NCBI GenBank assembly: GCA_950295325.1
Contig: OX485805.1
Location: 4,154,501 to 4,218,500 of the forward strand
DNA length: 64,000 bases
Direction: 5' to 3'
Origin: Polytrichum commune
Taxonomy: Eukaryota > Streptophyta > Polytrichopsida > Polytrichales > Polytrichaceae
Part shown: one piece after another, positions 1 to 64,000 of the stretch
How positions within the stretch are numbered: position 1 is the first letter of the stretch
Layout: each line of letters starts with the position of its first letter
Notes under the pieces: model-generated
Database searches by the model: none
Told to the model about the DNA's origin: nothing
Seen by the model: only the letters and a program-made list of their open reading frames with translations
Translations under genes and position numbers: made by a program

Positions 1-1232
1 GTTATGCAAATGCAAATGGATTGGTCTGTGGTGCAGACAACCATTCTATCTGCAGACATTCAACGAAATTGTTAGTTGAGGAGTCTTCCCTCAGCGTATA
101 TGTGTCCAGCTCTGCACTAAATCATGTTCTAGAATGTGGAGAATCTAACTAGGGGATAAATTATTAGGTGTAAGTATCTCCAATCCTAGGCCATAATACA
201 ATTGAAGGTCAAATAACTCAATTGCATCACCTAGTGACAAGGACAACTGTGCGGATGAATGACGAAAAGCGAGCATAACAGTTTTGACAATAATCCTTGT
301 ATTACAAAACATACTCCTAGTAAACACACAATTGTTTGTAAGAAACCCTCCAGCTTACAGTTGTTTGCACATGAGCAGGTCTTCAAAGCAAATTTCAATT
401 GATGCTGCAGAGGTTGTCAATGTAGCATTTAATGAACTCACCAGGTCCAGTATTCTTGTACATCCATAAATTACAGTACATTACTGTATGGATTTAATAA
501 TTCCCAGACAGGAGTGATATGCGGATTGGGAACAACAGCTCTGAAGGACACAAGGAATGTACATTGTGAGACCTAGGTATAGCTGTCCATGACAAGAGAG
601 CCAACACTGACCCCCCAAAAAACTATAAACAGCACTGACAATAATCACCTCGTAAAGAAACTAGAACCTGAGCCACAGCTTGTTAAAAACTTCATAGTTT
701 GCAGGATATACACATCATCAGACACAAACGATCTTGCGCACTAGAAAGTGTCAGAATCTAATCACATGTGTTGTGCTATAAAAACTGAGATTGAGACCAA
801 GCACCAAACATATTCTGCCAACCTACAGGAAAACTCATTAGTACAATGTATGATTTGAAGATGGACTCAAAGTGTCCTTTTGTCGCTTTAGTATTTTGTC
901 ATCTTTTTCCAGAAAGATTGAATTGGAGGACATGCACCATCTTCAATGGATCAATTTCTTTACTGAATGGGCACAAGCTGCTTTACTGGCATGCTTGAGT
1001 TCAATAGCAGCTCACTTGGCTGGCTAAACTACCCACCTGCGAAAGCTTCCGTCACCATGTCAAATCGACTATCATCAGCCACCTGTGTCTCTTTTTAAGC
1101 TCTAGGAGGGTGATTTCCCCTCAAGGACATCACGCTTGCCTAAGAGAAAACTGCCTTGGTACATCAATTTTAGGGGTCTTTGGAAGAAGAGTCTCGCTTG
1201 ACTTTTGTAAATTATGCATATATCATTAGTGC
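1..1232. other. 3' flank of phytoene synthase, no gene seen
   Basis: This stretch lies downstream of the minus-strand phytoene synthase stop codon, so its right part probably holds the 3' UTR. Only short, unconvincing open frames occur. No repeat, RNA gene or transposon end was recognised. Confidence 0.5.
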
Positions 1233-4200
1233 TTACATAGACCGCACTGCTGATCGTGGTGACGAAGGAGCTGGTGGTGGTACAAGTGCTCTGGCATAAG
1301 CAAGAGGAAGTGACGCGAGCTTCTTCACCTTGCCCACATAGGCTCTCTTTGAAAAATTGTCATAGTCGTTCGCCTCAATAGCATCCAAAATTTGTTGATA
1401 CAAAATGAGAGCTGACCACACCTGTACGACAAAATACCAGACCAATTATTGCAATGACATGTGCTCCAGCAGTGCAAGCCAAAGCCAACAATATCCATAC
1501 AATGAAGTGCACCAGGCACTAGGAACTGCTATTATCGATTATCAACCACCCTCATATTTTTCCAGACTGAGTGTACCATTGTACACTTAGTTTATTGCAT
1601 TATATTGCTGAGCACCAAGATACAATCAACATAAGAGAAACCTTATTAATAAAGACAGACTACCCACCGGCCAGCGACTGTCTTTGTCCAGCTCGCGCAC
1701 ACCTTTCTCTGCCTCCATGAAGAACATCCTTGCCCTCTTGATCTGATCTCTCATGAACGCCCTCCACTTGTCAGTTACCTTTCCTGCAAATATATCTTCG
1801 TCTGACAAACCAAAGCGGGCCAATTCATCTTGAGGAAGGTAAATTCTTCTACGCCGTGAACTGCAGTCAGCAACCATATCAGTATTAGGTACAGTGCACA
1901 AACCTATCCATACGTTTCAAATCATCAAAGATTGCGACTCGGCTTCACATCTCAAGTGCAATAGTTTGAGGATGGCTGGCACTTGATATTCAACAATGTA
2001 CAAAACTAGTGGATATTACTGAACCTGAATCACAACAAATACTTCAAACTTACTCTTCTCCAACGTCACGCAAGATGTTGGTAAGCTGATTGGCAATTCC
2101 CAAAGCCAAGGCAGCATTGTAGACATTTTGAGTGGTGGCCTTCGACTCTGGATCAATGCCCATGATAGGCACACTCATCAAACCAACAGTGCCGGCCACA
2201 TTGTAGCAATATAGGTACAGCTCGTCAAAATTGGCATATCGAGACTTGACCAGATCCATCCTCATCCCATCGATCATGTCCCTGAAGGGCTGCAAGGAGC
2301 ATCCAAATTAAGCAGGTTTCAAGCTACTCCTGATCAATCCCACTTAATAATCTCTTTGAGAATACACAGGTTACAAATACCCATAACTGAATCCATCTAA
2401 ACGTGCACATGAACATGAACAAACAAACAACCACATACTGTAGAACATGCTAGAAATAGACTGTAGCCAGCAGTGGTTGCATAGACAGCCTTGCAGCCAT
2501 ACTTGAGTGTTTGAACGCAGATTGCTAAGCAAAATCGTCAACCAAGCAATGCATAGAACAACTGATTTGCAGTGGTTGACAATCCTATTCCTATATATAC
2601 TAAAATTTGAGCGTTCCTAAAGTAGGAGAGAGGGGAAGTAAATTACCTGAATGTCCACAGGAAATTTGCTAACAGTATCAGCAAGAGCCGCATCCAGCAT
2701 ATCGTAGGGCTGACCCCGGAAAATGTCTTCCAATCTATCCTCCCATCTGTCAAGAGCAGTTGGAGTAATGTGAGATGCATTTGGCCCATCCACAAGTTCG
2801 TCTGTTCTCCTGCACCATACTGCACCCAGACACAGAAATTACAAACGAGAACTTAGGTACTGCACCTGAAGCTTGCAACCCCTCAGATTGACCTTGTGTG
2901 CAACAATTTGACCTAATTTGAGAATACAGCTGTATAGACAGAGGAAACACGTGATTCATGTCACACGGAGGGCCTATGAGGTTGATCACAGGCAATATCT
3001 CACATGTATTTACTTTACACAGCATTGCCGATGAAGTGATCACCCATGGAGAACATTGTAAAAGCAGATCTTGGTTATCACAACACATAATAATCTCAGG
3101 CACCCAGAACTTCTGGACTGGTAAATTGTGCTCAAATCCATGGGTGATTTAGTGCAGAAGGTGGCATACCATAGATAGCCCAGATGGCTCGTTGCCTCTC
3201 AGGAGTCATTAACTTTGTCCCTGCATCGCAACAACACAAAACATAATAAGCTGCCATAACAGGTCCTTGCAAAATATGCATGCAGTACCAACTTCAGTTC
3301 CCCCATAATTAGAGATCCAAAGACTATTAACAGGGGCCTATCCACAAAATGTAATCCTCATGTCCATCTCCAATTCCAGCCTGACCCATGAGTAGCTAGT
3401 TACGCCTTAATTCATGTGCAAGCGACATGGCCAGGTTCATGTGAACACATGTACTAGTGCATAGACTTGTGACATGAGAAAACCCCGTATTTCTACAAAC
3501 ACTTCGCCAGATCTATATTCTTGTTCGACATCCTTCCACAAAGCAAAAGGCACCATATAAATTTCGCTGACCATTGCCTCCGGGGCCTGAGGTGATGTGT
3601 GCAAAGCCATGGCATGTTCCCAATTACCAATCCTTCATAACAAGATGTCATAACAGGAAACATATCTTGGTGCATGCCAAGTTCTCTTGACCAGTTTATT
3701 CATCAATTAACAGAGTGACATCCTGCCAAAACCCGAATTTTTTCACCACCAACAAGCATTCAACAATGCAATACCAATTTCACTTCCCCAACATGAACGG
3801 AAGTTGATATGAACATTAAAAGTAATCCTCATGTCCATCTCCAATTCCAGTGTGCCTTATGGGTGACAGGTTAAGCTTCACATTCATGTGTAGGCAACAT
3901 AGTCAGGTTTAACAAAGTGTGCTTCATAATCCTCAAATGCAGTCAAGATGTGCTTGAGTGCAAATGCAATGGGCAACACAGGGAAGAGTGGTACGAGATA
4001 ATTAGTAAGAAGGCAAATAACTTGATTCATGCCAAGTATTCTTGACCAGTTATCTGTCAATAACATCCTCATTCAGAAGCAAGAATCAATCGTTGTCAAC
4101 TGACATCCTGCCATAACCTCACGATTCATAACCCCCAGGTATAGTGAAGTACACCAACAGGCATTCCACAATCCACCACCAGTTTCACTTCCCCAACATG

Positions 4201-5617
4201 AATGGAAGTTCGTACGGACAAATAAGGTAATCCCCATGTCCATCTCCAAATCCACTGTGCCCCATGAGTGACAGGTTAGGTCTCACATTCATATGTGAGC
4301 GACATGGCCAGGTTTAGCCTCAAATGCAGTGGAGATATGCTTTAGTGCAGATGCAATGAACAATAGAGGGAAGTGTAGTGCAAAATAATTAGTGAGAAGG
4401 CATAAAGATGGTGCATGCCAACTTCCCCAATATGAACACAACTTGATATGAACACAAAATGTAATCGTGTCCCTCTCCAATTCCACCCTCCCCCATGGAT
4501 GACAAGTTAAACCTCACATTCATATGTGAGCGACATAGCCAGGTAAAGCAATCCTTGTCTGAAGCAAAGATGTGCTCGAGTCCAAATGCCATGGGCACTA
4601 GAGGGAGGACGAGCAGTACAAGATGCAATATGAGAGAAGGCAAATAACTTGGTGCATGCTAAGCACTCTTGACCAATCACTAAAGGAACGGAAGTTTATA
4701 GGGACACATAATGTGAATTTTAAGGCCATCTCCACTTCCAGCATCCCCCATGGGTGACAGGTTAAGCCTCACATTCATGTGTGAGCGACATAGCCAGGTC
4801 AAGCAATCCTTGTACGAAGTAAAGATGTGCTTGAGTGCACATGTAATGGGCAATAGAGGAGGGATGAGTGGTACGAGATATGAGAAGCCGAATGTCTCGG
4901 TGCATGCTAAGTACTCTTGACCAGTCTTCAAAGGAAGGAAACGGAAGTTGATATGGATACATAATGTAATCCCAGTGTCCATCTCCACTTCCACCCTCCT
5001 CCATGGGTGACAGGTTGAGCCTCAACTTCATGTGTGAGCGACATAGCCAGGTGCAGCAATCCTTGTATGAAGTGAGGATATGTTTGAGTGCAAATGCCAT
5101 GGGCAATAGAGGGGAGATTAGTACGACGAGATAAAATTAGTGAGAAGGCGAACATACCCAAGTAGAAGGTCTTAGCGTACTCGGCACAAACCTCGCCGCA
5201 GCGGGTGTAGGCCTCCGCCAGAAGTTCCCTGGAGGTTCCGGAAGTCAAATCCCTCACATCATCTTGAAGGAGCCCGCGTTGGCTACGGTCATCCACGATG
5301 GCCACCTGCTTGGCCACCGCATCGTACACCTTCTGCTCCGCGGACATAGAGTTCCTGCCCGCGGGGTCGATGAGCACGCTGGATTGCACGCGTACATCGC
5401 TCCTCACATCCCTTGATGCCACCCTCACGTCCTTCAACACCGATGTGCATTTCGTGGCTACTCTCAACCCCTTTGTGGTTCGAGATTTCGACTTCAATAA
5501 TACAAAGAAGGCACCATCATGCGAGCCACGAACATCCGAGGGTCCGGCTAGGAAGCTGTCTCCACAGCAGAGGCTAGCTGTGCAGCTGCTAGCTCCTCGT
5601 AATCCCACAGCCTGCAT
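1233..5617 (-). CDS. PSY: Phytoene synthase, plastid precursor (six exons)
   Basis: Condenses two geranylgeranyl diphosphates into phytoene, the committed step of carotenoid synthesis in plastids. Exons by GT-AG boundaries that keep frame: 5617-5158, 3220-3170, 2819-2647, 2289-2054, 1860-1668, 1421-1233 (TAA at 1235-1233); total 1302 nt, 433 aa. About the first 90 residues are Ser/Arg/Val-rich and transit-peptide-like. Then come the family blocks [26 protein letters not shown], the first Asp-rich motif in [13 protein letters not shown], the second in [18 protein letters not shown], and the C-terminal [21 protein letters not shown]. Codons split across exons 1/2, 2/3 and 4/5 rebuild conserved residues, and the 5/6 junction falls between codons, which supports the model. 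The start is the first Met of the open exon 1 frame. Length suits a plant PSY, and both catalytic motifs are intact. Intron 1 (5157-3221) is unusually long and repeat-filled. The exact N-terminus is the least certain part. Confidence 0.95.
3360..5100. repeat. Degenerate repeat array inside PSY intron 1
   Basis: About six diverged copies of one unit sit in intron 1. Each has a phrase like CATCTCCAATTCCA, then GGGTGACAGGTTAAGC, then CACATTCATGTGTGAGCGAC and ATAGCCAGG. Copies begin near 3360, 3835, 4237, 4468, 4727 and 4976. The last three are spaced about 230-260 bp, the first ones more widely. The copies are similar enough to produce related open frames on the minus strand; these are repeat artefacts, not exons. 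Confidence 0.8.
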
Positions 5618-6149
5618 TGCGCAAGGCGCCCCCGCTAACTTTTTCCCTTCCTCAACACAAACAACCTCTCCTCAAAGAAAGCTGTTCTAAATGATTGCTG
5701 CAACCAAACCTCCAAAAACGCATACAGACACAGAACTAGCCCGGAAATAGAGCAGGCACTTCCACAAACTCACATTCTAGCAGCAGTGAGTTACCAGATG
5801 TCCACAACTGTCTAGCAGCACCGCAAACAGAAGAATTCTTTTAACTGTTTGCCAATAATCTCTAAAGGAGAGCATTCACCGGCAGCCCAACCAACCAACC
5901 AAATGTTTCACCACAGAAACAGCATCTGCGAGGATTATCCCCAAAGGAAACCCACAAGGTCACCGAACTCAAATTGAGTCCCTCCGAATCCAACAAAAAG
6001 CAGTTTCTAATTCCTTCATTTGCATTGTTGGGACGCATAGCCCGGCCCGCACTGCAGGTTGACCAGTGATGTGGAGCGCAGCCATCCTCGCAACCACTCC
6101 TCTGCGAACAGGCGTCACCCCTATCCTGCCCCCCTGGACCATCCGCGGC
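5618..6149. other. Upstream flank of PSY (5' UTR/promoter region)
   Basis: Immediately upstream of the PSY start. The first ~80 bp (minus strand) are purine-rich and plausible 5' UTR. No TATA box could be assigned confidently. No competing gene was recognised. Confidence 0.4.
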
Positions 6150-7345: not shown

Positions 7346-7538
7346 TAGAAAATAATAAATGGTCATGCAATGACACAAGAAGATTATAAAAGGACAGGAG
7401 AGTTTTGGAGGTGCAACAATAGCAAGAACTATAATTCAATGCATTTAAAATGTGCATGAACCTTTTTATGAAGGTATTTATGTGAGAACTTAATAAATGC
7501 CCATTTTGCCATAGAACAATAACGAGATACGAGATATG

Positions 7539-10310
7539 TTACCCCCGCAACAATTATCCCATTGGCACATATTTCTATCAATGAATGCAATCCCGAAAGT
7601 GATATAGAAACCACCATCAATACTATCCAAACACACTTTGATGTTGCCCACATATATGAAGACAACGGAAGGCACCTCACCACTATCCCCAAAACTAGAC
7701 TACATTGGCTATGGAAACAATACCAACTTGCAAAAAACACCCCACATGGACTAGAACCACCCACACAACCATTTGAAACTGAAATGGTATGGTTATACCA
7801 AAGATACAAATACCGTATTCCTAAAAATGACCCTCTAAAACTAGCCCAATACACAATACCAACCCCAATATTAAACTTTCTCACCACATCATTCAATATC
7901 AGCCACTCATATTTTTCATCCCCAATCACATGCCCCACACAACTCAATCAATTTTACTCCCCATTCTCATGAGATAAAATATTTGGATCCTTAGGGAAAG
8001 CCTTTGACCATAAATGGAAAGGAATAGGCTATGCCCACCCCAATAATGCAACAGACCTACAACAAGCTATACACTGGGCCCGTCTTGCCGCCAAAAACGA
8101 CCCAAGTACCATCACAATATTCATTTCACCTGATACAAACTGGTACCAAAACTTTAACCCACATTCCGGCCCATTCCCAGACACACATATTATCGCCCAC
8201 TTTGCTGCAGATACTATCACATATGAAGAACCTACTATACCACCAGAACTTAACCTACCTAGGAAAGAACTTTCTACACTACAAATATTTTGCATACACC
8301 ATCAAAATAACTGCATAGGAACATATGAACAGCCAAATCGACTCACCCGTATTGTAAACAATCTCTCAATACCACAACCATATACACAAATTGCCACACA
8401 TACCCCTCCGAATACCCCTGTCAATCCTAACAAAAAGTGGTCCAAATTAACCTATCCCAATATCCCCACACTCAATGAAACACCTTTGCCTCAACTACCC
8501 GACTACCAAACTAACTTCCCATTAAAATTTCATCCACAATTTAGTTATTACACTGACGGTTCATTTAAAAAACCTAAGCTAATTTCCCCCGGAATATGGA
8601 GAAAATAAACTGCAGGATATGGCATTTATAGCCCTAAAGGGCTTAACATAGCCAAACGACTACATGGCCACCAGAATATCCTACGGGCAGAAATGATTGC
8701 CATCCACAAAACACTACGAATTATCAACGCCCAATATCCAAATGAACCCGCATACATATTCACCGACAGCCTAAATGTACTATATCTACTAAACATACAA
8801 ATTAAACATCCCACACTACACAATAGTCACCCCGACCAAGTCACACTTGCCTCCTTGGTACAATTGCTCCAAAGCCGCTCCCAACCCACTACATTATACA
8901 AAGTTAGAGCACATGTCAACATAGACGGCAACGAACAAGCAGATAAATTAGCAAAAGAAGGATTGGACCTTACCCATAGAAGGGCCACACACCCATACGA
9001 ACACGCCCATGCCACACCTTACTACTACCAAAAAGACGAATGGCCCTCCATGATAGACACGCCAGACAAAGGTCCAGTTAGATTTCTAGAAAAACAAATA
9101 AAAAAATATGACAAAATAAACAACTTAGAAACTATGGCCATACAAACCCCCAATATTTACAAATGGACAGGCAATGAAAACATTGACAAAGAATTTTCCA
9201 ATGAATTTTGGAATAACCCTACCATTACGGACAAGCAAAAATCATGCCTTGTCAAATTTCGTACCGGAACCCACATGGACTAAGCCAGAAAACAAATCTT
9301 CTTTGGTAGACAAAGATTCCCCACCATCACCTGTCCTATTTGTAATTCTTACGAACCTGATACATGGCTACATGTACTGCTAACATGTAGACAACAACAT
9401 ATACACTCACTACACGTCAAAAGACATAACAAAACAGTCTGGGAAATCAGAAAATTACTAATCTCTTCCGAAAAATCCCGATGCTACACTCTTATGAACG
9501 CAGGTACCTTTAATGACAACCCCCAAGAAAACACCGTCCCTACCTGGCTATTACCTTGCACATGTGGAACCCAAAGATGTCACTGTAACTCTCGCTTTAG
9601 ACCCGACATTCTTTGTGTCAAAGGGTTACCATATCAAAATGAACCCCCCACAAATATAGACCAAACACTTACCATACAATTCATTGAATTCACATACTGT
9701 AATGATAGATTTTCACCAGAAACACTAGAAGCTAAAGCTAACAAATACAAGCCACTGATAGAAAACATTGCTGCTCTAGGATGGAAAATTGATCCGCTCA
9801 TTGTTATTACAGCAGGCGCTAGAGCCGCAACACACATTCCATCAATGAAACTGCTTGAAGACAAATTTAAACTACCTATGCCCTCCATCCGTAATACCTT
9901 CAGAAACATCAATACCATTGCCATGTCCATCCTCATCCACAAAAGACGACTAGAAAATCACCAACCCCTACCTCAAATACAAGACCCCCCCTAGCTGAAC
10001 CAAAATCTTATATGAAAAACGTCCTCTCCGTACAATAATGAGCTCATGACCTAACACCTCAACTCTGCACAAAACACACCCCCTTATTAATTAACCCTTA
10101 TTTATACCCCTTTTTATGTGTTACTGGCTTCTTTTGTTGTTGGTTTCTATTTGTTACTGGTTACTTGTGACTATAGTGTCTACTCTCGAAAGGGGGAAGT
10201 AGTTCCTCACTCCTATTCCTATGTCCCGCGGACATAGGTCTAGGGGTGGAACGAACATACACTTCATTCATGTCGGTCCCCTAGGGGATCGAAGTTTCTT
10301 CTCTCTTCTC
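7539..10310 (+). mobile_element. LINE copy 1, 5'-truncated, RNase H plus RLE-like type
   Basis: A non-LTR retrotransposon on the plus strand. Homology to copy 2 (63.06 kb onward) begins near 7539. The reverse transcriptase region is missing, as expected from 5' truncation during target-primed insertion. The coding part ends at the TAG at 9992-9994. It is followed by a ~320-bp 3' UTR with two strong hairpins, closing in a TTCTC-type pyrimidine repeat at about 10296-10325. The plus strand is strongly A/C-rich, unlike the flanks. I see no clear target-site duplication. Confidence 0.85.
7562..9994 (+). pseudogene. LINE polyprotein C-terminal part (three premature stops)
   Basis: One continuous frame of about 811 codons with no frameshift, interrupted by TGA at 7970, TAA at 8606 and TAA at 9281. 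Order of regions: (1) 7562-8530, a conserved block of unknown role, with WLWKQYQLA, SYFSSPITC, KIFGSLGKAF and HWARLAAKNDP; (2) RNase H at about 8540-8960, with YYTDGSF, RAEM, FTDSLN and AHVNIDGNEQAD giving the D-E-D-H/D catalytic set; (3) CCHC zinc knuckle at about 9327-9385 (C-x2-C-x10-H-x4-C); (4) a second Cys cluster, PCTCGTQRCHC; (5) a PD-(D/E)XK-like nuclease segment at about 9600-9850, with RPDILC, IEFTYCND, EAKANKYKPL and ITAGARAATH. The RNase H and knuckle calls are strong. The nuclease call is by motif resemblance to restriction-like endonucleases of R2/Dualen-type LINEs. Confidence 0.75.
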
Positions 10311-10325
10311 TTCTCTTCTCTCTCT
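10218..10325 (+). other. LINE 3'-end hairpins and pyrimidine tail
   Basis: A perfect 9-bp stem CCTATGTCC/GGACATAGG with a 3-nt loop lies at 10218-10238. It is followed by the palindrome CCCCTAGGGG at 10278-10287, extendable to 10273-10292 with one G-T wobble. A TTCTC repeat then begins at about 10297. Hairpin plus simple-repeat tails are typical 3' recognition ends for LINE reverse transcriptases. Confidence 0.55.
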
Positions 10326-14721: not shown

Positions 14722-15172
14722 CATAGTACACCCTAAACTCTGTAATATCAACCCCCATAATGTCACTCACTCTCTAATATCCTGAAACCCTAGGGAATGG
14801 ATGTTTGAACTTCAAATCTCACTCTTTATTGTCACATTTCTCTCCCTTATATCACGAAATTTGTCATTAATGCAAACAACCAAAGGAGTCAACCCACACC
14901 CTCGCATTGCGCCATGTGTCAATATGTGGAGTGTCTTCTTCTTCTTCTTCTTCTACTTGTTGAATGTTGGTGCATACATATGCCACATTACCCGGGAAGG
15001 CCAAATGGAGTGGACCACACCACACCATTAAAATGTTGCACTTTGTGTTATTCCATAGCGTCACATACTACACTAATTCTATAGTATCACGCATCCATGT
15101 TAACACTACAAAACTCCGTAATATCACGTGCACCACGTGTGTGATACTACGGAGTTTAGAGTGTAGTTTGAT
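14722..15172. mobile_element. MITE with CTCTAAACTCC-type termini, copy 1
   Basis: Left end TACACCCTAAACTCTGTA (about 14727) is the inverted counterpart of the right end TACGGAGTTTAGAGTGTA (about 15154-15171). Inside the right end is a further near-perfect stem pairing ACTCCGTAATATCAC with GTGATACTACGGAGT around a short loop (15112-15155). A related copy in opposite orientation starts at 58376. No coding capacity; superfamily not assigned. Confidence 0.65.
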
Positions 15173-24434: not shown

Positions 24435-24477
24435 GTTTCTCTTTCTCTCTCTCTCTCCCTCTCTCTCTCTTTCTCAG
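24435..24477 (-). promoter_or_regulatory. GA-repeat upstream of CURT1 start
   Basis: A CT-rich run on the plus strand reads as (GA)n on the coding strand, about 180-220 bp upstream of the chosen start. GA repeats in this position are common in plant 5' UTRs and can bind GAGA/BPC-type factors. Function is inferred from position only. Confidence 0.35.
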
Positions 24478-30932: not shown

Positions 30933-33900
30933 TTATTGTTCCTCTGGAGGCACTGGATCTTCTGGAGCCACCACAGGCACTAATAGCTCCTCCTCAGCAT
31001 CCACCTCAGGCATTTCCCTTAGGTTTTCCAAAACCTCTAGCATGTTGGGCCTCTCAGCCGGCACATGGGAAGTACACAGTATGGCCGCTCTCATGACATG
31101 TAGGATTTGATTAATGCGAGCTTCATCTGCACACTGAAACATAGCCATGTCGATGGCATTCTGCTCCCTGTTTTGAGCCCTCAGGGACCGGATCCAAGTG
31201 GGTAAAGTTGGCCCCACCCCAACTTCCTCACTGGCAGGCTTCTTCCCAGTGATCAGCTCCAGTAGCAACACTCCAAAGCTGTAAACGTCCCCTGACAAAG
31301 ATACCTCATCTGAAAATCCATATTCTGCACAGGATGCATCACGATGTCAATTTAGATCATAGACCTAGATCATTCTTGACTGACAGATGATGTATTCAAC
31401 TAATACATTGACAGGTATCCAATCACCCTGAGCAGCCTCTCTATCAAATTATTAGACCTTGCTCAGAATGAAAGTGCTTCTCCATGGTGTCTTTCTCCCC
31501 AAAAGAAACCTTATGGAACCTCCAAAAGCTAGATCATAGAATTCATGAATGAGTATCTTCTATACCTCGTGAAGTGCTCACATCTCAAGAGGCACTCTCA
31601 CTGATTTGATCGCTTCAAGATGACATTATGCTTGCAACTTTGCCACATATCTATATTATTTGAATTTCAGTCCATCATACAAGCTTCTCAATAAAACAAA
31701 TAAAATTTGTGATGAAGATGTTTTTACTTCTAAATTCATTATGGGAGCTCAAAAAAGGATACTTTATATTTTTAACTGTACAGATTGATCCTTTGATGGT
31801 GCCTCACAGATTCTTTTTTTGTGAGAATTCTGAAGAAACCCATGGAAATGTTGTTTTGTAGCACATCTTAGTGATACTTCCAGCAATTCCTAGCAGGCTC
31901 TTCAAGAGTCTATTTCAAAGCACCAGTTGACATACCAGGGGGAGTATAGCCAGATGGACCGATCCACGAAGCAGCAGTGGAGCCTTTATGGTTCCTTTTG
32001 ATGAGTCTTGACATTCCAATGTCCACGAGCTTGGGCTCCATCTCACAGTCCAGGAGGACATTGGCTGCTTTCACATCACAGTGCACTATAGCTTTGCCGT
32101 TCCCACAGGTACCATGGTGCAGATACACAAGGCCTTCGGTGATTCCCATTATGATCCGTAGCCGCACTTCCCACCTACACAAAATCAATCAATCAATCAA
32201 TCCAATCTCCATAGGGCATGTCCACATGACCGAAAGTTCCAGTCCACATGACCACATGGAAGATGACCGAAAGTTCCAGGCCAAGCATTTCCACGAGGCG
32301 GCATGAAAAAGTAACCATCTCCAATAAAATTGTTTACAGAAGTAAATAGGTGCTGTCAAATTGACTTACTTGAGTTGGCAGGAATGCTGGCCAGGGGGGT
32401 GCAAATGCAATTCAAGTGTGCCGTTGGGCACAAACTCCATTAGAGTGGCCAGGGTGTGTGGATTCATGTAGAATCCCATGATCCTCACCAAGTTCCTATG
32501 CCTGATTGACCCATAATTCATCATCTCTGCATCGACGATGCGCCTTGCCTTTCTCCCAAACCTGGCGATATTCCACTGCTTGACAGCGAACACAGTGCCA
32601 TCAGGAAGCACAGCTTTTTCAATATTACTGAACCCCATGGCCCGCCGGATGGTCCCACTCAAGCTGCCACTCATGGGGCCCGCTATCATTCCACTGGTGT
32701 CTGTGCAAGCAGTGGCAGCTTGGATCTCCTCCGCCGTTAGTTTTAGGGCTTTCAAATATTTAGAGAACAAGACCACCACCTCTGTCTGTTTGGGGTTCCT
32801 TCGGAGATACAGGAACTGGCAAAGGAGCAGAATGAAGATCAGAAGGATGCTCCCTTCAATGGCCACCCCTACCACAGAGAACAAAGAAAATGGCTTCTTG
32901 GGTGTAGGGGAGCTCACTTGCCAAGGGCACAGCCTGCCAACAGGTGTGCCACATAGCCCAGGATTGCCAAGAAAGGAAGTTGATGAAAGGTTGTGGAAGC
33001 TTCCGGTGTCAGGGACAAAGCCTTCCAGGTTGTTGTTTGAGACGTTTAGAAACACAAGGTGGGTCATGTTGGCAATTTTTTCCGGGATTCGACCAGAGAG
33101 ATTGTTGTCTGACAAATCCAGCTTGGCCAGATTCTGAAGGCTTGCCAGAGATTCTGGGATAGCTCCCTCCAAGGCATTGTGTGAGAGGTTCAGAAAAAGG
33201 GTTAAGTTCTGAAGCAGGCTGATAACTTCCGGGATACTGCCATTGAACTGGTTGGAAGAAAGATCTAAACTCTGCAGTTTAGAGCAGTTCCCAAGGCTGT
33301 CCGGGATGCCGCCTGAGAAATGGTTTCCTGACAAATCCAGGCCTTGGAGTTCACTTAAGGCTCCAAGTGAGGAGGGAAGCACTCCAGTAAAATAATTGTG
33401 GGAGAGATCCAAATAGGTTTGCAGCCTCACTAAATTCCCAACCGAGTCCACAGAGCCAGTCAGGTTGTTGGATGAGACGTTCAAGTACTCCAAAGAGGAG
33501 CAATTCAGCACCGAAGACGGCAGCAGCCCTGTTAACCTGTTGCCTCCCAAGTGGAGGAAACTTAGGATAGGGGACCAGCCTAACCAGTCGGGAACAATTC
33601 CAGTGAAATAGTTGTCACCCATGTTGAGGATCTTGAGTGCAGTGAAGTTTTGGAGCATGCCAGGGAATAAATCACTGAATCCACAGCCTTCCACATTGAG
33701 CTCCTCCAGTGCAGTGCACGACGACAGATTTGCAGGGAACAGACCTGAGAGTGAATTCCCGTTAAGACGCAACACCTTGAGGTAGTTGAGAGTACCAATC
33801 TGGTCTGGAAGTGGGCCTGAAATCTTGTTGCCACCCAGGTCCAGAGTCTCCAGGAATGGCAGATCCCCAATGTATGGGGTCAACTTCCCTTCCAGTTTCT

Positions 33901-34327
33901 TATCAGGAAGAGCAATGGAGATAACACGCCCCTGATTTGGACCTTGGTCCTGGCTACAAGTGACAGCATTCCAGTTGCAATAATTTGGTTGTGTGATATT
34001 ATTCCAATCATAGAAAGCTCCGGTGGGATCTGCAGTTAAGTGTCCCTTAAAATACTGCAATGCCAGGAGCTCCTGGTTTGGAAGGGAAGAAGGTGGGGGT
34101 GCCAGAGGAGTAGGTGGGGGAGGACTTGGCACAGGTGGAGGTGGAGATAGCGTAGGAGGAGGTGGAGATGGTGTGGGTGGAGGTGGAGATGGAGATGGTG
34201 GAGGTGGAGGTGGAGGTGGTGGAGGTGGGGGTGGGGGTGGAGGTGGAGGCGGGGGGGGAGGTGGATACGTTGCTTGAAATGGAGGAGGCTCAGAGTTCCC
34301 AATGTCTTGCACCAGAATTCGCTCCAT
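30933..34327 (-). CDS. Leucine-rich-repeat receptor-like kinase (three exons)
   Basis: Putative plasma-membrane receptor. Exons: 34327-32370, 32174-31936, 31324-30933; 2589 nt, 862 aa, in frame across both GT-AG introns. Regions: Pro-rich stretch (residues about 14-80, mostly uninterrupted Pro); LRR N-terminal cap at about 83-125 with NWNAVTC; roughly 12 LRRs at about 135-445 (LxxLDLSxNxFxGxIP pattern); juxtamembrane Cys pair CGTPVGRLC; transmembrane helix at about 484-507; kinase domain from about 545. Lys583 in AVKQW, Glu601, Asp686 (HCD in place of HRD), Asn691, Asp704 (DIG in place of DFG) and PPE are readable. The Gly-rich loop is degenerate (MGFSNIEKA), so catalysis may be weak or absent. 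No signal peptide follows the chosen Met, and an in-frame stop lies about 55 bp upstream. An upstream signal-peptide exon may therefore exist. Ligand unknown. Confidence 0.9.
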
Positions 34328-35100
34328 TGTCCATCTCGCTCTTGCTGATTCGCGCTGAGAATCTGAGGAACAATAATGTTCTCATATTAGAAAGCCTCAA
34401 AAGATGCAGAGCAGGTCCATAATCTACAAGTGGCTTTAAGAGTATGCATGTGCTTCAGCTGTACTATGAGTTCTCAAAAGAGGAGATTCCTTATGCATAC
34501 AAGCTACATTCACTGTTTCTATGAAAAGGAGAACATAGCATCTTCTTAATCTCAAGCTGGTAATAACTTCGTCAAGGTTTCCAGTCAATAGTTAATGGCT
34601 TTCTTATACACAGAGGGTGGTTTGAATCGTCTAAAGGATTAACACACTTATGTTCCTCTACCTAATGCGACTCCATGGCCATCTTGCTAACTCGCACTAA
34701 GATTTGAGGAGCAACAATGTTTTCCACCAGAAAGCACAAAAGATGCAGGGCAGGTCCACAAACTGGAAGTGGCTTTTGAGGGCATGCAGGTGCTTCAGCT
34801 GTAATATGAGATATTGAAGCAGAGGAATTCTTACATATACAATACACATTCGTTGTTACTATGAAAAGGAGTCAATGTAGCACCTTTATAGATAATCTCA
34901 AGTATATTGAAATCCGTTAAGATTTCCGAATAAGGGTCAGTAGATTAATAGCTTTCTTATACAAAGTGACCTTTTTTTAAATAGTCTAATGAGTTTGAGG
35001 AATATGATCTTCTCGCTAAGCAACTCCTTGGCTGATATTCAATGTGCAAAGTTACAGTGACGACTCTTATACAAGTTGATCTGTCTGATAATCTAACCCT
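34318..35100. repeat. Tandem duplication overlapping the receptor-kinase 5' end
   Basis: About 34318-34650 and 34665-34995 are direct copies, sharing AAAAGATGCAG-GCAGGTCCA, CATG-AGGTGCTTCAGCTGTA-like and CTATGAAAAGGAG phrases. A shorter third fragment follows (CTTATACAAGTTGATCTG near 35070). The first copy overlaps the first codons of the kinase gene, so the duplicated unit contains the gene's start region. Confidence 0.75.
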
Positions 35101-42692: not shown

Positions 42693-43067
42693 TAAGTAGG
42701 CATTCACCTATGTTGACTCCGGGGATCTCCAAACTTGCCTGTGGTCAGAAACATAATATATTGTTATGTGTCCTACCATTAATTACTACCAGGCACCAAC
42801 TTTTCCCCGGCTTTCCCTCTACCCACTTACCTACTTACCTACTCCCGTGCAGGGACAGGAAGCTGTAGCAGGCGGCATCCTTTGTGTTGGACAAGAAGAA
42901 CTTTATTGTTATGGTATAACTCCTGGAGTTCAATGCACCATTGAAAAAAAAACCCAAAAAAAAAGAACGCTTTCAATTGCCCATGATTGTTGCCGACTGC
43001 CCGCAAGTGTTCTTCCCTGCCATTTTGATCTTCTTGCAGCCTACGTGCTTATATTTACGCTTGCATG
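42693..43067. other. Short intergenic stretch
   Basis: No gene. A run of A residues with few interruptions at about 42945-42967 is the only notable feature. Confidence 0.4.
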
Positions 43068-44460
43068 GGTCCATGTTCACAACACCTATCACCGGTGACA
43101 TAACGTTATCCAGTTGAAAGAGGGAGTTGGGTGGGTCTGGGAATACGTTAGATAGTGTTCCCATATGATGCCTTTGGGATTCTTTGTTGTGCGTATTCAG
43201 CTTGATGTACTCTTGATCTCTTGGGTCAATTTAACCAACGGTTGTACCTTGAATGGATCCAACCCCGCCCATTAATCTCCACCCTCCAGTGCACCATCAA
43301 TCTCCCACCGCCCTCTGTCATTGGTTGGGGTTTACATTGATATGGGTCCATGTTCACAACACCTATCATTGGGGACATAACATTATCTAGTTGAAGGAGG
43401 GAGTTGGGTGTGTGTGGGAATACGTTAGATTGTGTTCCCGGACGATGCCTTTGGGATTCTTTGTTGTGAATATGTAGCATGATATACGCTTGCTCTTTTG
43501 GGTTAAATTTGACCACCGGTTGTACCCTAAATACATCCAACCCAGCCCCATTAACCTCCACCCTCCAATACAACATCAATCTCCAACAGTCCTCTGTCAT
43601 TGGTTGGGGTTTACAATGATATGGGTCCATGTTCACAACACCTATCATTGGGGACATAACGTTATCCAGTTGAAAGAGGGAGTTGGGTGGGTCTAGGAAT
43701 ACGTTAGATCATGTTCCCAGATGATGCCTTTGGGATTCTTTGTTGTGCGTATTCAGCTTGGTATACTCTTGATCTCTTGAGTCAATTTAACCAACGGTTG
43801 TACCTTGAATGCATCCAACCCCGCCCATTAATCTCCACCCTCCAACGCACCATCAATCTCCCACCGCCCTTTCTCATTGACTAGGGTTTACATTGATATG
43901 GTTCCATGTTCACAACACCTATCGCCGGTGACATAATGTTATCCAGCTGAAGGAGGGAGTTGGGCGAGTATGGGAGTATGTTAGATCGTGTTCCCAGATG
44001 ATGCCTTCGGGATTCTTTGTTGTGCATATTCAACTTGATATACTCTTGATCTCTTGGGTCAATTTAACCAACGGTTGTACCTTGAATGCATCCAACCATG
44101 CCCATTGACCTCCACACTTCCGGTGCACCATCAATCTCCAATTGTCCTTTGTCATTGGTTGGGGTTTACATTGATATGGGTCCATGTACACAACACCTAT
44201 CATTGTAAACATAACGTTATCTAGTTGAAGGAGGGAGTTGGGTGGGTCTCATGGAAATATGTTAGATTGTGTTCCCGGATGATGCCTTTGGGATACTTTG
44301 TTGTGAATATATAGCCTGATATACGCTTGCTCTCTTGGGTTAAATTAATCAACGGTTGTACCCTGAATGCATTTAGCCCCACCCATTAACCTCCATCATC
44401 TAGTGCACCATCAATCTCCAACTATCCTTTGTCATTGGTTGGGATTTATTTTAGGTTTAA
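43068..44460. repeat. Five-copy satellite array, period about 279 bp
   Basis: The phrase GTCCATGTTCACAACACC recurs near 43068, 43346, 43625, 43902 and 44180, and each copy also has GATGCCTTTGGGATTCTTTG and AACGGTTGTACC. The period (276-279) is mostly a multiple of three, so one minus-strand frame (43657-43226) stays open over 1.5 units. Other copies have stops. No known protein is recognised. Confidence 0.9.
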
Positions 44461-48729: not shown

Positions 48730-51090
48730 TTTGTTGAGGAGGATGGCAGAGAGGGAGCAAATGGCAATGGTGGTAATTGGATTTGCATTGTTTTGAGGTG
48801 GTTGGGGGGTAGTTTAAAGCTATTGGTAAGGGTTTTGAGGGTGGAAATGTGAATTGCTCTTTGTTGGCCAGTGGTTAGGACAATGAATGGCTAAATTTGC
48901 CAACTAAAGCAGTGATGGCTATAATGAGTGGGTGTATTTGTCAAAGTTCCTTTGTGTTGTCATTTATGGGAAATAATCATGGTAGTAGTGGGTTGGTTGG
49001 GGAAGGGGTCTTGGAATTGGAGATTTTTGATGTGAAGAATGTTTGGGCAAAATCAAGATGGGCAGATGCATGGGGTGGAGGGACAAGTGCAAAAGAGTAG
49101 CCAATGTGGGACGGTGTTGTCAATGGGGGTAGTAGAGGAAGATGTACCAATAGCGAGGCATTTCCGCAGAGTCTAGTGATGGGAGAGTAGGAGTTGTCAA
49201 ATGCGTTTTAAAGCCTTGATATATATTTTTGTGTGCAAACCCTAAAGGATAGGGTGGGTGCAATTTGCAAGAACATGGGGTCATGTGCCATGGTTGGAGT
49301 TTCCTAGAGGGGGCATAGTGAGCATAATGGGGAAAGGACTTTTTGGGCCCAAAAGAGGTGCTTGCAACAATTGCCCATGTACAGTCCACCCTCTATAAGT
49401 GTTAACAATTGGGAGTGGTAATATTGTTAACACTTATAGAGTGTTAACACTTATAGAAATATAGAGTTTAACAAATCAAAACATAACACGTATAAATGTA
49501 ACACAAGTAAAATATTTTTATAATACCAAATGAAGTTCCAAAATACAATTGAGGAGTCTCACTCCTCCATTTCCACTCCTCTAGGATGGAAGAAGGCATC
49601 TATAGAGGTCTGAACTCTGAAGCCTGAACTCTGAAGCCTTCCCCATCTCTACTGTCCTAGATTAAATTGAAAGACAGATGCAAACTGACTCTAAACCACA
49701 AGGACACAAACCCTATCCACAAAAATAATACAGCACCCTCAAAATTAATCAGACAAAACTCGCCACCGCTGCCGCGGGAGACTTGGAAGGCATATTTCGG
49801 CCAACCATAACTCACTCGTTAGAAGTCAGAATTCGACAAAACTACTACCATTGGAATCGTCTCCTCAATAGCTTTCTAATGGTATGTGATTCGCCCTACA
49901 AGTCTGAAATTCGAAAACAACATTCTCCGAAATTCGAACGCTGGTAGACTAGCTCAACCTGCTAGGGTAAACTTAGTTGACGAGGGAGGGACTTGCAGTC
50001 AATATCCTAAACCCTAATAATTTCTAAATGGGGGGTATGTTACAGTATGTTATAGTATATTACATGTGCTATGTTACAGTATATTGTATTGTATGGTATT
50101 ATATAGTATAATAATAAGTTAACAGATATAGAGGGCAAAATTACAAAGAGGGGAGTAGCCAATCAGTTAACACTTAACACTTAACGTTATTGTAGTCTCC
50201 CCAAGTAGGGAGTAGAAAAAATGTTAACACTTATGGAATTTTAACACTTATAGAGGTAACACTTATAGAGGGTGGACTGTATTGAGCATTGTGAAACTTG
50301 AATGCTTGGATGATGTGGGAATTAGGGATGGCGGAGTCCTTCCAAAAGGTGTTGGAGAGATTGTGGTTCAATGAGGTGTTCTTTGTCATCTATGAAAGGA
50401 TGAATGGTGGGTGTTGACTTCTTGGGTGAGGTGTTGTTTGTAGAAAGAGGGAAGTTGTGTGTCAAGGTTTTGGATGGGGCCTTTCCATAAGTTCTATTGT
50501 GTAGATAGTTGGGGTAGGGGTGGTAAATGTGAATGGCTTTGCCAACAGGGGGAGCATTGGCACCGGATTAACGAGGGTTTCAACCATGTCATCACCTTGG
50601 ATCAGACTTTGAGGATATGTACCGGGAGGGGGGTGAGTTTGTATTCATGTGAGGATGTCATGTAGAAGAAATTTGTTAGAGTGGTGTGTATGGTCCATGG
50701 GGGATTGTTTGTAGTTTCTTGGGAGATATGTTGAGACAAGGTTGTCAATGAAGATCTAGGTTGTGAGGTGAGGGTGGCATAGTGTGGTGGCTTTGTGCAA
50801 GGCCATAAGTTCCAAATGAAGAATATTTCGGCAATCTAGTAAGCGGAAGGCACGTAAAATGTTGTTGCATGGAGCATATAATCCCGTATCCCGCTTTGGT
50901 CAAGTTGTCTTCTTCGAATAGGGATCCATCTATGTATTTGGTTTGATGAGATGGGAACTTAAAAGGGGGATCAAGAGGGAAGGTTGGGAGGGGTGGGGCG
51001 GGTGGGGGTGGTTGATGTTTGGGTTTTTTTTTCATCCATGTCTTGGGAGTATCTAGGGAGCCTATTATGTTGGAGCTAATGTGCATGTGG
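48730..51090 (-). mobile_element. Decayed LINE copy 3 (minus strand), interrupted
   Basis: Read on the minus strand, the sequence around 50900-51000 gives FPLDPPFKFPSHQTKYIDGS, matching the lead-in and first RNase H motif of copy 1. Beyond the inserted MITE, 49380-49200 gives PCSCKLHPP, and about 48930 gives HPLIIAITALVG, parallel to the Cys cluster and the nuclease-region motif of copy 1. Many stops and frameshifts; certainly inactive. Boundaries are approximate. Confidence 0.55.
49382..50279. mobile_element. pogo/Emigrant-like MITE inserted in LINE copy 3
   Basis: An 898-bp element with perfect 23-bp terminal inverted repeats, starting CAGTCCACCCTCTATAAG (49382-49404 and 50257-50279), flanked by TA on both sides. 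CAGT...CCTCTATAA ends with a TA target are those of Tc1/mariner pogo-type elements, such as the plant Emigrant MITEs. The sub-terminal motif TTAACACTTATAGA is repeated several times at both ends, possibly transposase binding sites. No transposase frame. Perfect TIRs suggest it is young. Confidence 0.88.
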
Positions 51091-58699: not shown

Positions 58700-59490
58700 G
58701 ACGCCCAAATTACCCCAAACACTCAACTTTTGATACAAACAATACATGAGATGCCAAAAAAAACATCTTCTGGGCACTCACCTAACCAAACCCAAGTGCA
58801 CCCTATGCCTAAACAACAATATATACACATGGCCACACCTCCTCTTTGCAATGCGCAAAACAACACATTGAAGAACTCCAAATAGCCATGCACAGTAAAG
58901 ATGTATTCCTTGTTGTTCAAACACTTTAAGCCAATAATTGATTTTTTCCCAATTTTAAAATGTTTCTCAATGTTACGATGTTTTTACAATAACAAATGCA
59001 TGCATCATCATCAATACACCACATGATGCAACAATCCCGGAATGGCTACCGCCATGTTGTTGCAACACCCCACCATGTCAACGCCTCACAAGACTGAGAC
59101 CCGCCATTGTCTATATGATAGGCCACCCAAACAATTGTCGCACACCATTACACCCTTCCCCCACAATAAAAATCCAATTCGTTGAATTTATATAGCAATG
59201 GTTGCTACCCGGAAACAACCATCAACACCAAACCTAACATACACAACCCATTAACAATCTATCTAAAGCCAGGGGGTTAGAAAGTAAATCCACTAGTAAT
59301 CATCATGGTTGGAGTTTGTGAAGCTATCCATGAACAATCCATATACATAAACTCAAAAATCCCTAAAAAAATCCCCAAAACAACAACAAAAATCTACACC
59401 AAAATGCCATGAAATACCTTACATTCTCAACATCAAACGAAATAAAACTAGACCGTCGACAAACATTGGTCGTTCCCCATCCCGTAAAGC
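58700..59490 (+). mobile_element. Decayed LINE copy 4 (3' coding fragment)
   Basis: In shifting plus-strand frames one reads CTLCLNNNIYTWPHLLF (zinc knuckle of copy 1: CPIC...TWLHVLL), then PEWLPPCCCNTPPCQ, TRLRPAIV and IKIQFVEF, in the same order as copy 1's Cys cluster and nuclease motifs. The Asp of RPD is lost (RPA). Several stops and frameshifts; inactive. The end is approximate. Confidence 0.6.
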
Positions 59491-59633: not shown

Positions 59634-59678
<45 letters not shown>

Positions 59679-60778
59679 ATCTTGCTCTTGTTTAAAGCCA
59701 TATATTTTGTTTAAGCTTGTATTCCTTTACTTTATACCTATCATGCACACATAAATAAAAAAATAGTTACTGTATGGACTAAGTGTTCATAAGTATAGAT
59801 GAATGATACAAGGTGACTAGGGTTAAGGATGTAGAACACATCCCTAACACGTGGTAAAATTAGGGTTGTACAGAACTTACCTTGGGTAAGATCTCCAATA
59901 TAAACCCGTAAACCCTAAAAGAGGCTCTTTTTTACCATTCGCACAAGGGCTTGGTGAGGTAACTTGGAGCACACTTGCTGGGATACTAGATACGTGTGCT
60001 AAGTGAAGTAGAGGATACTTAGGCTATTCACAAAGGAGAGCATTCTACTTGTGGTGATACAATCATGGCTAAAGAACAGGTTTGAACACCCATTTGACAT
60101 TTTGTAATGAGTGTTACTACTAGCAATACTAATATGCATGTAATGTAAGTTTGATGTGTGTGACATGGATAACAACTGGGTCCTGCTGTTATTTACCTCG
60201 TGTACGTAACTAATCCTCAATTATTTGTTGGTTGGTTGCATGGGCACAGGTGAGGCAGGCCCTTCACACTTACAATACTACAAAGTATTGTGAATATGAC
60301 ATTTTATGTATTCCTTTTGGTTGATACTACTAGGCATATCTCCTGGTATGTTTTCCATATATATAATAGTTAGGGTACATCCTTGTTGGAGCAATGCATG
60401 AAGAGAGGTAATTAGATCTACAAAGGTATGATGGGGTCAGCCACAATTTGTTTTTGAGTACTTAGGAACTATGTATGAGTACTGAAACCCTAAGTATGAT
60501 ACAAATACTTATGAAAGTACAGTATATCGCATTATTACATGTTTGTATTGTTTACATACAATTAGACATGGGCGTTTACAAAGAGCATTGAACATACTTA
60601 GCCTTAAAACGATATGATGAGAAAGTTTGATTTGAGGTAATGAGGGTTATGAAAAAGTTCCCACCCACCCACCCTTGCATTGCAATGAAGAAGACATTGA
60701 AGGATTAGGCCTCTGAAAAGAGGAAGTTCAAGCTTTGCAAAAAGCGTTGAAAAGTCAGCTCTCTCTCTCTCTCTCTCC
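59491..60778. other. Intergenic with (CT)n microsatellites
   Basis: A pure CT run occurs at about 59637-59675, and a shorter one (about 60760-60777) directly abuts the start of LINE copy 2. No gene supported. Confidence 0.5.
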
Positions 60779-63700
60779 TTGAACCATGGGCACAACCTGG
60801 ATGGATACACCCTCAAGAAGAGAGGAGAACCACTAATCCCCCTTCATACCTACCTCGTTCAAGAAACATACGACATATGCCTCCAAAACCTAGCCAACGG
60901 AGAAACCCTTGGACCAAATAAAATCCCCAACACCATATTAAAAAGTATGACGCCTCGTTTTCACACACTACTACTACTACTCTTCTTTAATCATTGTTAT
61001 AAACAAAAACAAATCCCTACAAGTTGGAAAACAAGCCTCACCATACTCCTATATAAAAAGGGTAATCCATAATGCCTCACTAACCATAGACCAATAGCCC
61101 TCGCTAACACAATATATCACTAGCATTCTCTCTATATATGGAAAAAGACACAAAAATTTACATGACAGCCAAGAAGGTTTTAGAGCTGAGAAATGTACAT
61201 TAAGACAATTACAAACCACCATCTTGGCACTAGAAGACACTAAACTCACAAACTATGACATCTACATATTGTACATAGACTTGGTTCAATTGACCACGCC
61301 ATACTCCTTGCTCTCATGAAATATCTTGGATATCCGCAAGACATTGTAGCTATGGTAGGAAATATCTACTCACAATCCACCACAACATTCACTGGATAAC
61401 ACTTTGGCAAAACACAACCAATTCTCATACAAAGAGGAACCATACAAGGAGACACTTTAAGCCCATATCTCTTTAATATTTCCCTCGAACCACTCCTAAG
61501 ATGGTTACAAAAAGGAGATAATGGATACTCCTTCAAAATCTCAAACACAATAATAAGCTCTACAGCCTACGCAAATAATCTAGCTATTCTAGCTAAGAAA
61601 ATGGCATTTCTACAACTCCAACTTAACAAATTCGGCAAATTCTACGAATGGGCAAGGATGGATCTAGGCATCCCCAAATGCGCGGTCACCGGATGCCCCA
61701 ACAAATCAAAATTAAATTCATAAGCCTTCAAAACACAAATACGAAACACAAATATAAACTTTAGAAACCAACCAATACCCGTACTCAACCAACAAGAACC
61801 ATATATCTACCTTGGAAATCAACCTAGTTCCCTCACTACAACGGAAGACACAAACCCACACTACCACAACCAAACTAATAAAACAATGTAAACTCCTAGT
61901 TACATGCCTAACTACCATGAAACAAAAAATAAAAATGATCGATACAATTATATGAGTTGGCATTGCCTATCACTTCTACGCCGTCCCATACTCACTCCTG
62001 GCCATTAAAATACTTGACAAAAAAATATTTGCCCTACACAAATCTATATGCGGCCTATCATAATGTATATCAAACGTTGTCACACAACTATCACATGACA
62101 TGTTCAACATAGAAACATTCTCACTAAAAAAATTGCGTACATTGCATGTATTGGTGAACAACTCATTAATGCCCTCAATGACAAAGGAAGACTTGGAAAG
62201 ATATACAAATAATTAGTACAACATATACTTGCGAAGCACAACACCTAACATGTATCTCACATCATGATTGTACATGCTCATGAATCACAAGAACCCTATT
62301 TTCACTCAAAACAACAAGTGGAACCCACCTCAAAAGCACACTTGAAGCATTCCCCCTCGGCCCTACGCCACTAGAAACACAATGGATGCTACAAGCAAGA
62401 AATATACCAACATTAACCCCAACACTATCACAATATCTATACAAAATTAATATTACATAATACATTTGAACTAAAACAAATAACACTCCCCAATGGAACA
62501 CACGAAATGAGCAATGATGAATTCAAACATTATTACAACACACCAACAAAAATAAAGAAAATTGCATTAGAGTATGCTAGAACACTCTTTTGTGAACCCT
62601 CATGCCACAATCATTGTACAAGCCAATGCCTAACACACGCGGCACCAAACACCCTGAAAAATGAATATAAAATACAAACCATAACATACACATAAGACCA
62701 CAAGAACACCCCACCTACCCCCCCACCTCCACCACCATTAGAACATCCCACCCCCCCCCCCTACATCCTCGAAGATCCAACACACCTCCCAATACACAAC
62801 ATACTAAACGACTGCCCCAGCACATACAAAGACGAATACAAAATCATGAAAATGTTTACGTCTTACCTATGCCAATGGACACTCCCAAATGAAACAATTT
62901 ACAACAAATGGCTACCCCAAAGAGATTTGTTTCCTTGGAATGGTCAAAACACCATAACCCATAACATACTACTCCTCACGCAATATTACACCTGAAAACA
63001 ACACCAACATTTCACTTACATAATAATCACAAACTTCCATCAAGATCAAATAAAAAACACCAAAATCATTCTCCCACCACAAACCATACCCTTGTGTCAC
63101 ATTCACATCAACAAATGCAACTCAGAAGATGACATCACATACACACAAAGCACCATCCAAACCCGACACGATACCGCACACATCTATGACAACACTGGCC
63201 GACATCTGACTACCATCCCTAAACTAAGACTAAAATGGCTATGGGACCAATACCACTTAGCACTAAATAGACCACATAACCTTGAGCCCCCTACCCAACC
63301 ATTCGAAATAGAAGTAGCATGATTACACCAAAGATATAAATGTTAAACTCCTAAAAATGACCCCCCTAAAATTCTCGCAATACACACTCCCAAACACCAT
63401 CCTTGAACACCTTACAAGTTCATTCCAAACAACACGCTCATATTTTTCATCACCAGTGACATGCTTTACCTCACTCAACAATTCTACTCCCCATTTCCTA
63501 GAGATATAGTATTCGGATCATTAGAAAAACGTTCCAACAAGAATGGCAAGGCAAAGGATACGCACACCCACATACAGAAACCAAAGCCCAACAAACCCTC
63601 CACTGGGCACGCCTTGCAGTAAAAAACGACCCAAACTTTGTCACAATACTAGTAGCAGTAGATGAAAATTGGTATAACAACCTTAACCCCCACATTGGAC

Positions 63701-64000
63701 CCTTCCCAAATTCGCATGTAATCACACACTTCAAAGTTGACACCATCATCTACGAAGAACTAACAATCCCCCCCCCCCCCCGAATTGTGAATTGAACTTA
63801 GAACAGAAAGCCGTGCCATCCATATACTACAAAAATCGTACACCACAAAAACACGCCCATTGGATCACATGAATATACCCAACAAATGAACGACATCGCC
63901 AACACCCTACAAATCCCTGCAATGTTCAACCAAGTTGCACCGCCCATCAATGGCCACCCCAGTAAACTGCAATACAAAATGGGTTGAACAGGCATACACA
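60779..64000 (+). mobile_element. LINE copy 2, reverse transcriptase part, runs off window
   Basis: It begins at a CT microsatellite with a reverse transcriptase lead-in (about 60890-61065: GPNKIPN, IPTSWKTSLTILLYKKGNP). It continues with RPIALAN near 61090, SQEGFRAEKCTLRQLQTTI near 61160, a damaged palm motif near 61280, GTIQGDTLSPYLFNISLEPL near 61435, and AYANN near 61570, where active enzymes have YADD. A thumb-like region and a Pro-rich spacer with C runs follow. From about 63060 the sequence aligns with copy 1 from 7539 (GRHLTTIP, EPPTQPFE, SYFSSPVTC, HWARLAVKNDPN). Numerous stops and frameshifts make it inactive. The RNase H part would lie beyond the window. Confidence 0.8.

Follow-up and report, generated by a model that had tools for sequence, protein, structure and literature searches.

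In the extracts of the literature considered here, Dualen/RandI elements are described as LINEs that encode both an APE and a restriction-like endonuclease (RLE) (PMC4640811, PMC3636483); an RNase H is also listed for them (PMC4640811), and Dualen has been found in Chlamydomonas and its relatives (PMC8226300). In the same kind of extracts, plant L1 elements are reported to carry an archaeal-like RNase H with an arginine in place of the histidine and a CCHC knuckle located upstream of the RNase H (PMC4640811, PMC5348765), and the catalytic lysine of the R2-type RLE is given as the first lysine of a KX2KY motif (PMC5678591). For PCIF1, PMC6318281 assigns the ANPPF stretch to the methyltransferase part of the protein and states that disrupting NPPF reduces activity.

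The stretch of DNA analyzed here (the window; 64,000 nucleotides of Polytrichum commune contig OX485805.1) probably holds an RLE-type LINE family of the plant genome, whose copies here are all dead, with a non-catalytic PCIF1-like domain within its polyprotein. The polyprotein would have the order reverse transcriptase (RT), PCIF1-like domain, RNase H, CCHC knuckle, CXCX4CXC cluster and RLE. Among the papers listed by searches of the open-licence literature, we saw no description of a PCIF1-like domain in a non-LTR retrotransposon, nor of a Dualen-type LINE that is from a land plant or bears PCIF1. All features are on the forward strand unless stated otherwise.

Element copies in the window

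Counting tblastn matches at E < 1e-3 within the 64-kb window gave four copies (A to D), which were unequally decayed, in agreement with the original prediction of at least four copies of varying age. All four are broken, and the N-terminus, where an APE would sit, is missing from every copy. No copy in the window spans the RT to the RLE, and the two are never found in one copy; the RT is absent from copy A and, among the window copies, present only in copy D.

Copy A (7490–10325) represents a LINE without its 5' part. It had previously been placed from 7539; the element is real, and its start was set about 50 bases too late, as tblastn similarity to copy D extends back to approximately 7490. 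Its reading frame (7541–9994) contains three in-frame stops, at 7970, 8606 and 9281, and copy A is therefore dead. The frame is followed by a 3' UTR running to a CT-rich tract (10295–10325), which was assumed to mark the 3' edge. Within the 3' UTR, a hairpin with 19-base arms (84% complementary) and a 3-base spacer is found at 10208–10248, where RNA structure is possible. The hexamer TGAGAA occurs at both ends of copy A and is not claimed as a target-site duplication, as it is one among several 6–7-base matches there.

Copy B is encoded on the reverse strand (48807–50884) and comprises a degraded RNase H (50884–50618) and a CCHC-RLE region (49322–48807), which are separated by about 0.9 kb more than their counterparts in copy A. 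The sequence AACACTTATAGAG is repeated around the extra stretch (49391–50271), in forward orientation at 49429, 50243 and 50258 and in reverse at 49391, and the stretch is perhaps a nested transposon. Copy C (58797–59331) consists of a degraded and frame-shifted CCHC-RLE region. Copy D (60780–64000) comprises the RT, a linker and a PCIF1-like region and is interrupted where the window ends. Its start was placed at a CT tract, and matched sequence begins at approximately 60878.

Four tracts in the window satisfy a rule that asks for a minimum length of 18 pyrimidines and a minimum of three CT repeats, and three of these lie near copy ends: 10295–10325 (copy A), 59636–59678 (copy C) and 60759–60780 (copy D), the fourth being found at 24436–24475. 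The copy C tract is a (TC)20 repeat approximately 300 bases past the last copy C match. RLE LINEs often target repeats according to the extract of PMC4640811, and the CT tracts are possibly a microsatellite target or tail. Against a microsatellite target stand the edges of copies A and D, which were themselves set at the tracts, and a (TCT)n tract at 14934 that is excluded by the CT rule; the same rule found no tract past the 3' end of copy B in the window.

The window also contains features outside the LINE copies. A leucine-rich-repeat protein is encoded on the reverse strand (32366–34381), with an LRRNT_2 match, a long proline-rich stretch near the N-terminus and kinase matches below the cut-offs. 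The reverse-strand frame 4928–5671 gave no Pfam match and looks, by its motifs, like a phytoene synthase exon. In the sequence itself, these two frames are what points to a plant host. A 277-base unit is repeated five times in tandem at 43065–44448, with 84% matches.

RNase H, zinc knuckle and the RLE-like C-terminus

The RNase H domain of copy A (8540–8965) matched PF00075 with an E-value of 4.4e-14 when read across one stop, and of 4.1e-12 for a shorter piece; it also matched Ribonuclease H1 (8swb, E 0.0009). The complete D-E-D-H/D set claimed for this copy was confirmed, with all motifs located: TDGS (8552), AEM (8687), TDSL (8762), AHVNI (8909) and EQAD (8933). Its histidine aligned to that of Ribonuclease H1, making the domain H-type. 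The RNase H lies upstream of a CCHC zinc knuckle (9332–9388) of the form CX2CX9HX4C (CPIC-X9-H-X4-C), one residue longer than the spacing CX2-3CX7-8HX4C given for RLE LINEs in the published extract. An RHN motif (9422–9430) is found downstream of the knuckle. In copy C, the knuckle reads CX2CX9H and the final cysteine is missing. Further downstream, copy A contains a CXCX4CXC cluster (9557–9586), which is kept in copy B, retains three of its four cysteines in copy C and occurs in none of five RLE references. These references comprised three R2 fragments from the PDB and two frames of LINEs, L003 and L005, which contain CCHC and RLE motifs, were found in MAG records and are taken to be eukaryotic contamination there.

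The RLE-like segment (9599–9850) contains RPD (9599), IEF (9683), a KX2KY motif (KANKY, 9734–9748) and GAR (9815). The order of RNase H, CCHC and the RPD, IEF and KANKY motifs described previously for this copy is thus present, with GAR following. A pattern of CCHC, PD, D/E and K...Y, composed after inspection of copy A and the references, matched copy A and all five references and none of 200000 shuffles of the copy A protein. When a profile of copies A and B was compared with the references using hhalign, the CCHC, RHN, PD, K..KY and GAR motifs aligned in order (E 0.0016, probability 15.8). A column-shuffle test of the same comparison gave a score of 27.5 over 147 columns (hhalign probability 13.6), with 300 shuffles scoring at most 22.9; copy A alone scored 22.9 (probability 3.9), and 20 other window ORFs of at least 120 residues scored at most 15.2. 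With a four-row alignment, just 40 knuckle columns aligned with the references (probability 15.5). When the knuckle was removed and only the RLE core compared, 7 of 500 shuffles equalled or exceeded the real score with copy A alone (probability 2.1), as did 26 of 300 with copies A and B (probability 0.4). Support for the RLE thus leans on the knuckle, the core by itself being weak.

Single sequences of the RLE region had no matches in the PDB up to E 10, and the region's profile (hmmsearch) retrieved unrelated proteins only, with E-values from 1 to 2.7, so that no nuclease was found there; no relatives of the region were found in the viral_contigs and genome_contigs collections. AlphaFold models of the region were weak, with a pLDDT of 36 from a single sequence and 51 from three sequences. 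The latter showed strand, strand, helix, strand, with KANKY within the first helix, as described for R2 in the published extract; its Foldseek search returned nothing significant (best of 49 matches E 0.99). In the CCHC-RLE stretches, third codon positions change most between copies A and B and between A and C, in a protein-based alignment, which favours such a bias.

Of the PD-(D/E)XK-like arrangement proposed originally, RPD and KANKY hold, being present, aligned and in an R2-like order; the acidic residue lacks a confident assignment, the glutamate of IEF failing to align with the aspartate of the references in two comparisons. The fold itself is favoured by the motif order and by the knuckle-plus-RLE profile, and finds no backing in the models or the Foldseek search. 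The C-terminus of copy A is likely, though not proven, to be an RLE judging by its sequence, and its fold and activity, as well as the mechanism of transposition, would then be those of an RLE LINE.

A plant member of Dualen/RandI would also account for an RLE-like C-terminus combined with an RNase H that follows the RT-linked region. The N-terminal APE of such an element would simply not show in copies that have lost their N-terminus; no APE is seen, which counts against this assignment only to the extent that these copies could have displayed one. It is a real, if tentative, possibility, compatible with an RLE-type LINE family carrying a PCIF1-like domain and serving to refine that reading.

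The PCIF1-like domain

The original prediction did not include a further domain, similar to PCIF1, that precedes the RNase H in copy A and follows the RT in copy D. The product of 7541–8605 matched PF12237 over profile positions 14–106 of 176 with an E-value of 2e-10, scoring 40.9 bits compared to a curated cut-off of 31.1; the matched part corresponds to 7754–8032 (hmmscan). When the region was searched against the PDB (phmmer, up to E 10), two of the three matches were PCIF1 chains, with E-values of 0.0066 (6irx) and 0.06, and the third (E 0.62) was another protein. Pfam labels PF12237 as 'PCIF1 WW domain'; the PDB match here (7793–8125) includes PCIF1's ANPPF stretch. No WW domain was matched by Pfam in the scanned frames of copies A and D, both of which are broken.

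The counterpart in copy D (63074–63975; tblastn against copy A) shares 54% and 45% amino-acid identity with copy A over two stretches, and YFSSPVTC, FGSL and AHP are common to both copies. A Pfam scan gave no PF12237 match in copy D, where the region is frame-shifted. When the two copies were aligned as DNA (874 columns), mismatches at the first, second and third codon positions numbered 85 of 292, 72 of 291 and 155 of 291, respectively, and within the Pfam-matched segment 21 of 91, 15 of 92 and 42 of 91. This excess at third positions indicates that the two lineages were mostly constrained as coding sequence while they diverged, and that copies A and D died afterwards.

In the HMMER alignments to the PCIF1 chains, the place of NPPF is taken by AHPNN in copy A (8033–8047), just past the Pfam-matched stretch, and its counterpart in copy D reads AHPHT (63562). 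NPPF is thus aligned with AHPN and AHPH, and the catalytic motif is absent from both copies, as read from HMMER alignments of two dead copies in which the Pfam match ends just before the place in question. Because the changed motif is common to two diverged copies, it is probably ancestral to both. Since this place reads AHP followed by N or H in each of them, we infer a non-catalytic, RNA-binding role for the domain, which might serve to bind the element RNA at its capped 5' end.

The change could instead be a subfamily trait or a misalignment, with the domain acting in intact copies as an N6-adenine methyltransferase that marks the element RNA or DNA. The family-level matches to PF12237 and the PDB, as well as the codon-position bias, would fit such an enzyme; AHP is found in both diverged copies where PCIF1 has NPP, and we regard retained activity as unlikely.

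We favour a non-catalytic PCIF1-like module inside an RLE-type LINE. Its most specific form, in which a distinct land-plant clade of RLE LINEs acquired a domain of the PCIF1 type (an m6Am writer), located between the RT and the RNase H, and uses it as a non-catalytic RNA- or cap-binding module, is put forward tentatively and falls short of an even chance. If true, the family would place a PCIF1-derived domain in a LINE, as a transposon-borne member of a methyltransferase family in a land plant, where none had been expected, and so provide a counter-example at protein-family level. It would show LINEs acquiring enzymes of RNA modification in addition to nucleases, and the recognition by a LINE of its own RNA cap would become testable.

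Reverse transcriptase and comparison with known systems

The RT of copy D (60878–61792) is decayed, its YADD motif having become YANN. It matched PF00078 with an E-value of 7.5e-7 and 29.5 bits, 0.1 bit under the cut-off of 29.6. In the PDB (phmmer, up to E 10), R2 RTs were its sole matches, comprising five distinct sequences with E-values from 4.4e-13 to 3.8e-12. Three of these are named R2, and two are named 'Reverse transcriptase-like protein', which we take to be Bombyx R2. LINE-1 ORF2 is represented in the same collection by four distinct sequences, which were retrieved with a profile that includes R2; the copy D RT alone matched none of them within E 10. The RT piece had no relative in the viral_contigs collection.

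As an L1 yardstick we used a stretch of the IMG/VR contig L002, which we take to be a mammal-like L1 ORF2. In L002, one reading frame (2–3562) joins an unrelated N-terminal stretch to the L1 ORF2-like stretch, perhaps through host contamination or a chimeric contig. Direct blastp of the copy D RT gave 75–84 bits for the R2 fragments, 80 for L003, 70 for L004, 52.0 for L005 and 52.8 for L1, this L1 being mammal-like. L005, itself an RLE LINE, thus scores no better than L1, and in L004 an RT is present and an RLE was not seen. L001 was set aside as a 14-residue chance match. With frames unjoined, identities to the copy D RT were alike for L003 (21.0%), L005 (21.0%) and L1 (21.4%). A tree of eight RT sequences placed copy D on a long branch and L1 beside L003, with deep-node supports of at most 58, and was left out of the classification owing to this poor support. 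Taken together, the sequence comparisons suggest that the copy D RT leans to R2 over the tested L1, not decisively. An RT nested inside plant L1, the outcome that the original prediction had set against itself, is somewhat disfavoured by the R2-only PDB matches and by R2 bit scores of 75–84 compared to 53 for L1; the 52 bits of L005 and an L1 that is not from a plant weaken this contrast. The RT would belong to the same polyprotein as the RLE-like segment, joined to it via the PCIF1-like region common to copies A and D.

Some of these data would fit an ordinary RNase H-bearing plant L1 whose C-terminus merely resembles an RLE, as plant L1 can carry an RNase H (extracts of PMC4640811 and PMC5348765), the RLE fold is unproven and the preference of the RT for R2 over a non-plant L1 is modest. 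Against it stand the R2 RTs as the only PDB matches of copy D and the R2-like order of CCHC, RHN, PD, KX2KY and GAR. The RNase H, in addition, has a histidine and not the reported arginine, and precedes the CCHC knuckle in reverse of the reported order. Because the RNase H keeps its histidine and precedes the knuckle, the present family is most likely not a plant L1, insofar as sequence features can separate the two, and we consider that assignment very improbable. It keeps some weight, and the RLE-LINE reading is called no more than probable, since the RLE LINE L005 does not outscore L1 and no acidic RLE residue could be assigned. That the PCIF1-like match, which Pfam detects in copy A only, arose by chance or from a host gene fragment captured in that copy alone is barely credible, as the same region is found at the same place in copy D with YFSSPVTC, FGSL and AHP kept and with the codon-position bias.

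An RLE-type LINE family with a PCIF1-like domain shares its plant host and the presence of an RNase H with those L1 elements that have an archaeal-like RNase H, and differs from them in the histidine replacing arginine, the CCHC placed after the RNase H and the RLE-like end. The oomycete Utopia families likewise combine an RLE and an RNase H in one element; in the extract of PMC4640811 their RNase H is of archaeal type and located upstream of the RT, whereas the present family has an H-type enzyme that follows the PCIF1-like region. The cap m6Am methyltransferase PCIF1/CAPAM has the PF12237 domain in common with the family, in which NPPF is changed, the domain lies inside a LINE frame and no WW domain was found in the frames scanned. 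Dualen/RandI of the green algae resembles the family, going by its published description in extract, in having an RNase H and an RLE in one LINE of the green lineage. It is defined by an APE together with an RLE, whereas no APE is visible here, the N-terminus being absent from all copies, and a PCIF1-like domain is not mentioned in the extracts of the Dualen descriptions. For R2 and the other RLE clades R4, NeSL, HERO and CRE, the extract of PMC4640811 does not list an RNase H; neither an RNase H nor PCIF1 was found by Pfam in L003, and a CXCX4CXC cluster ahead of RPD occurs only in the present family when compared with the RLE LINE references. A land-plant RLE LINE would bear on how LINE lineages with an RLE parted from those with an APE. 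With R2 and its relatives the family shares the match of its RT to R2 RTs and the order of CCHC, RHN, PD, KX2KY and GAR(G).
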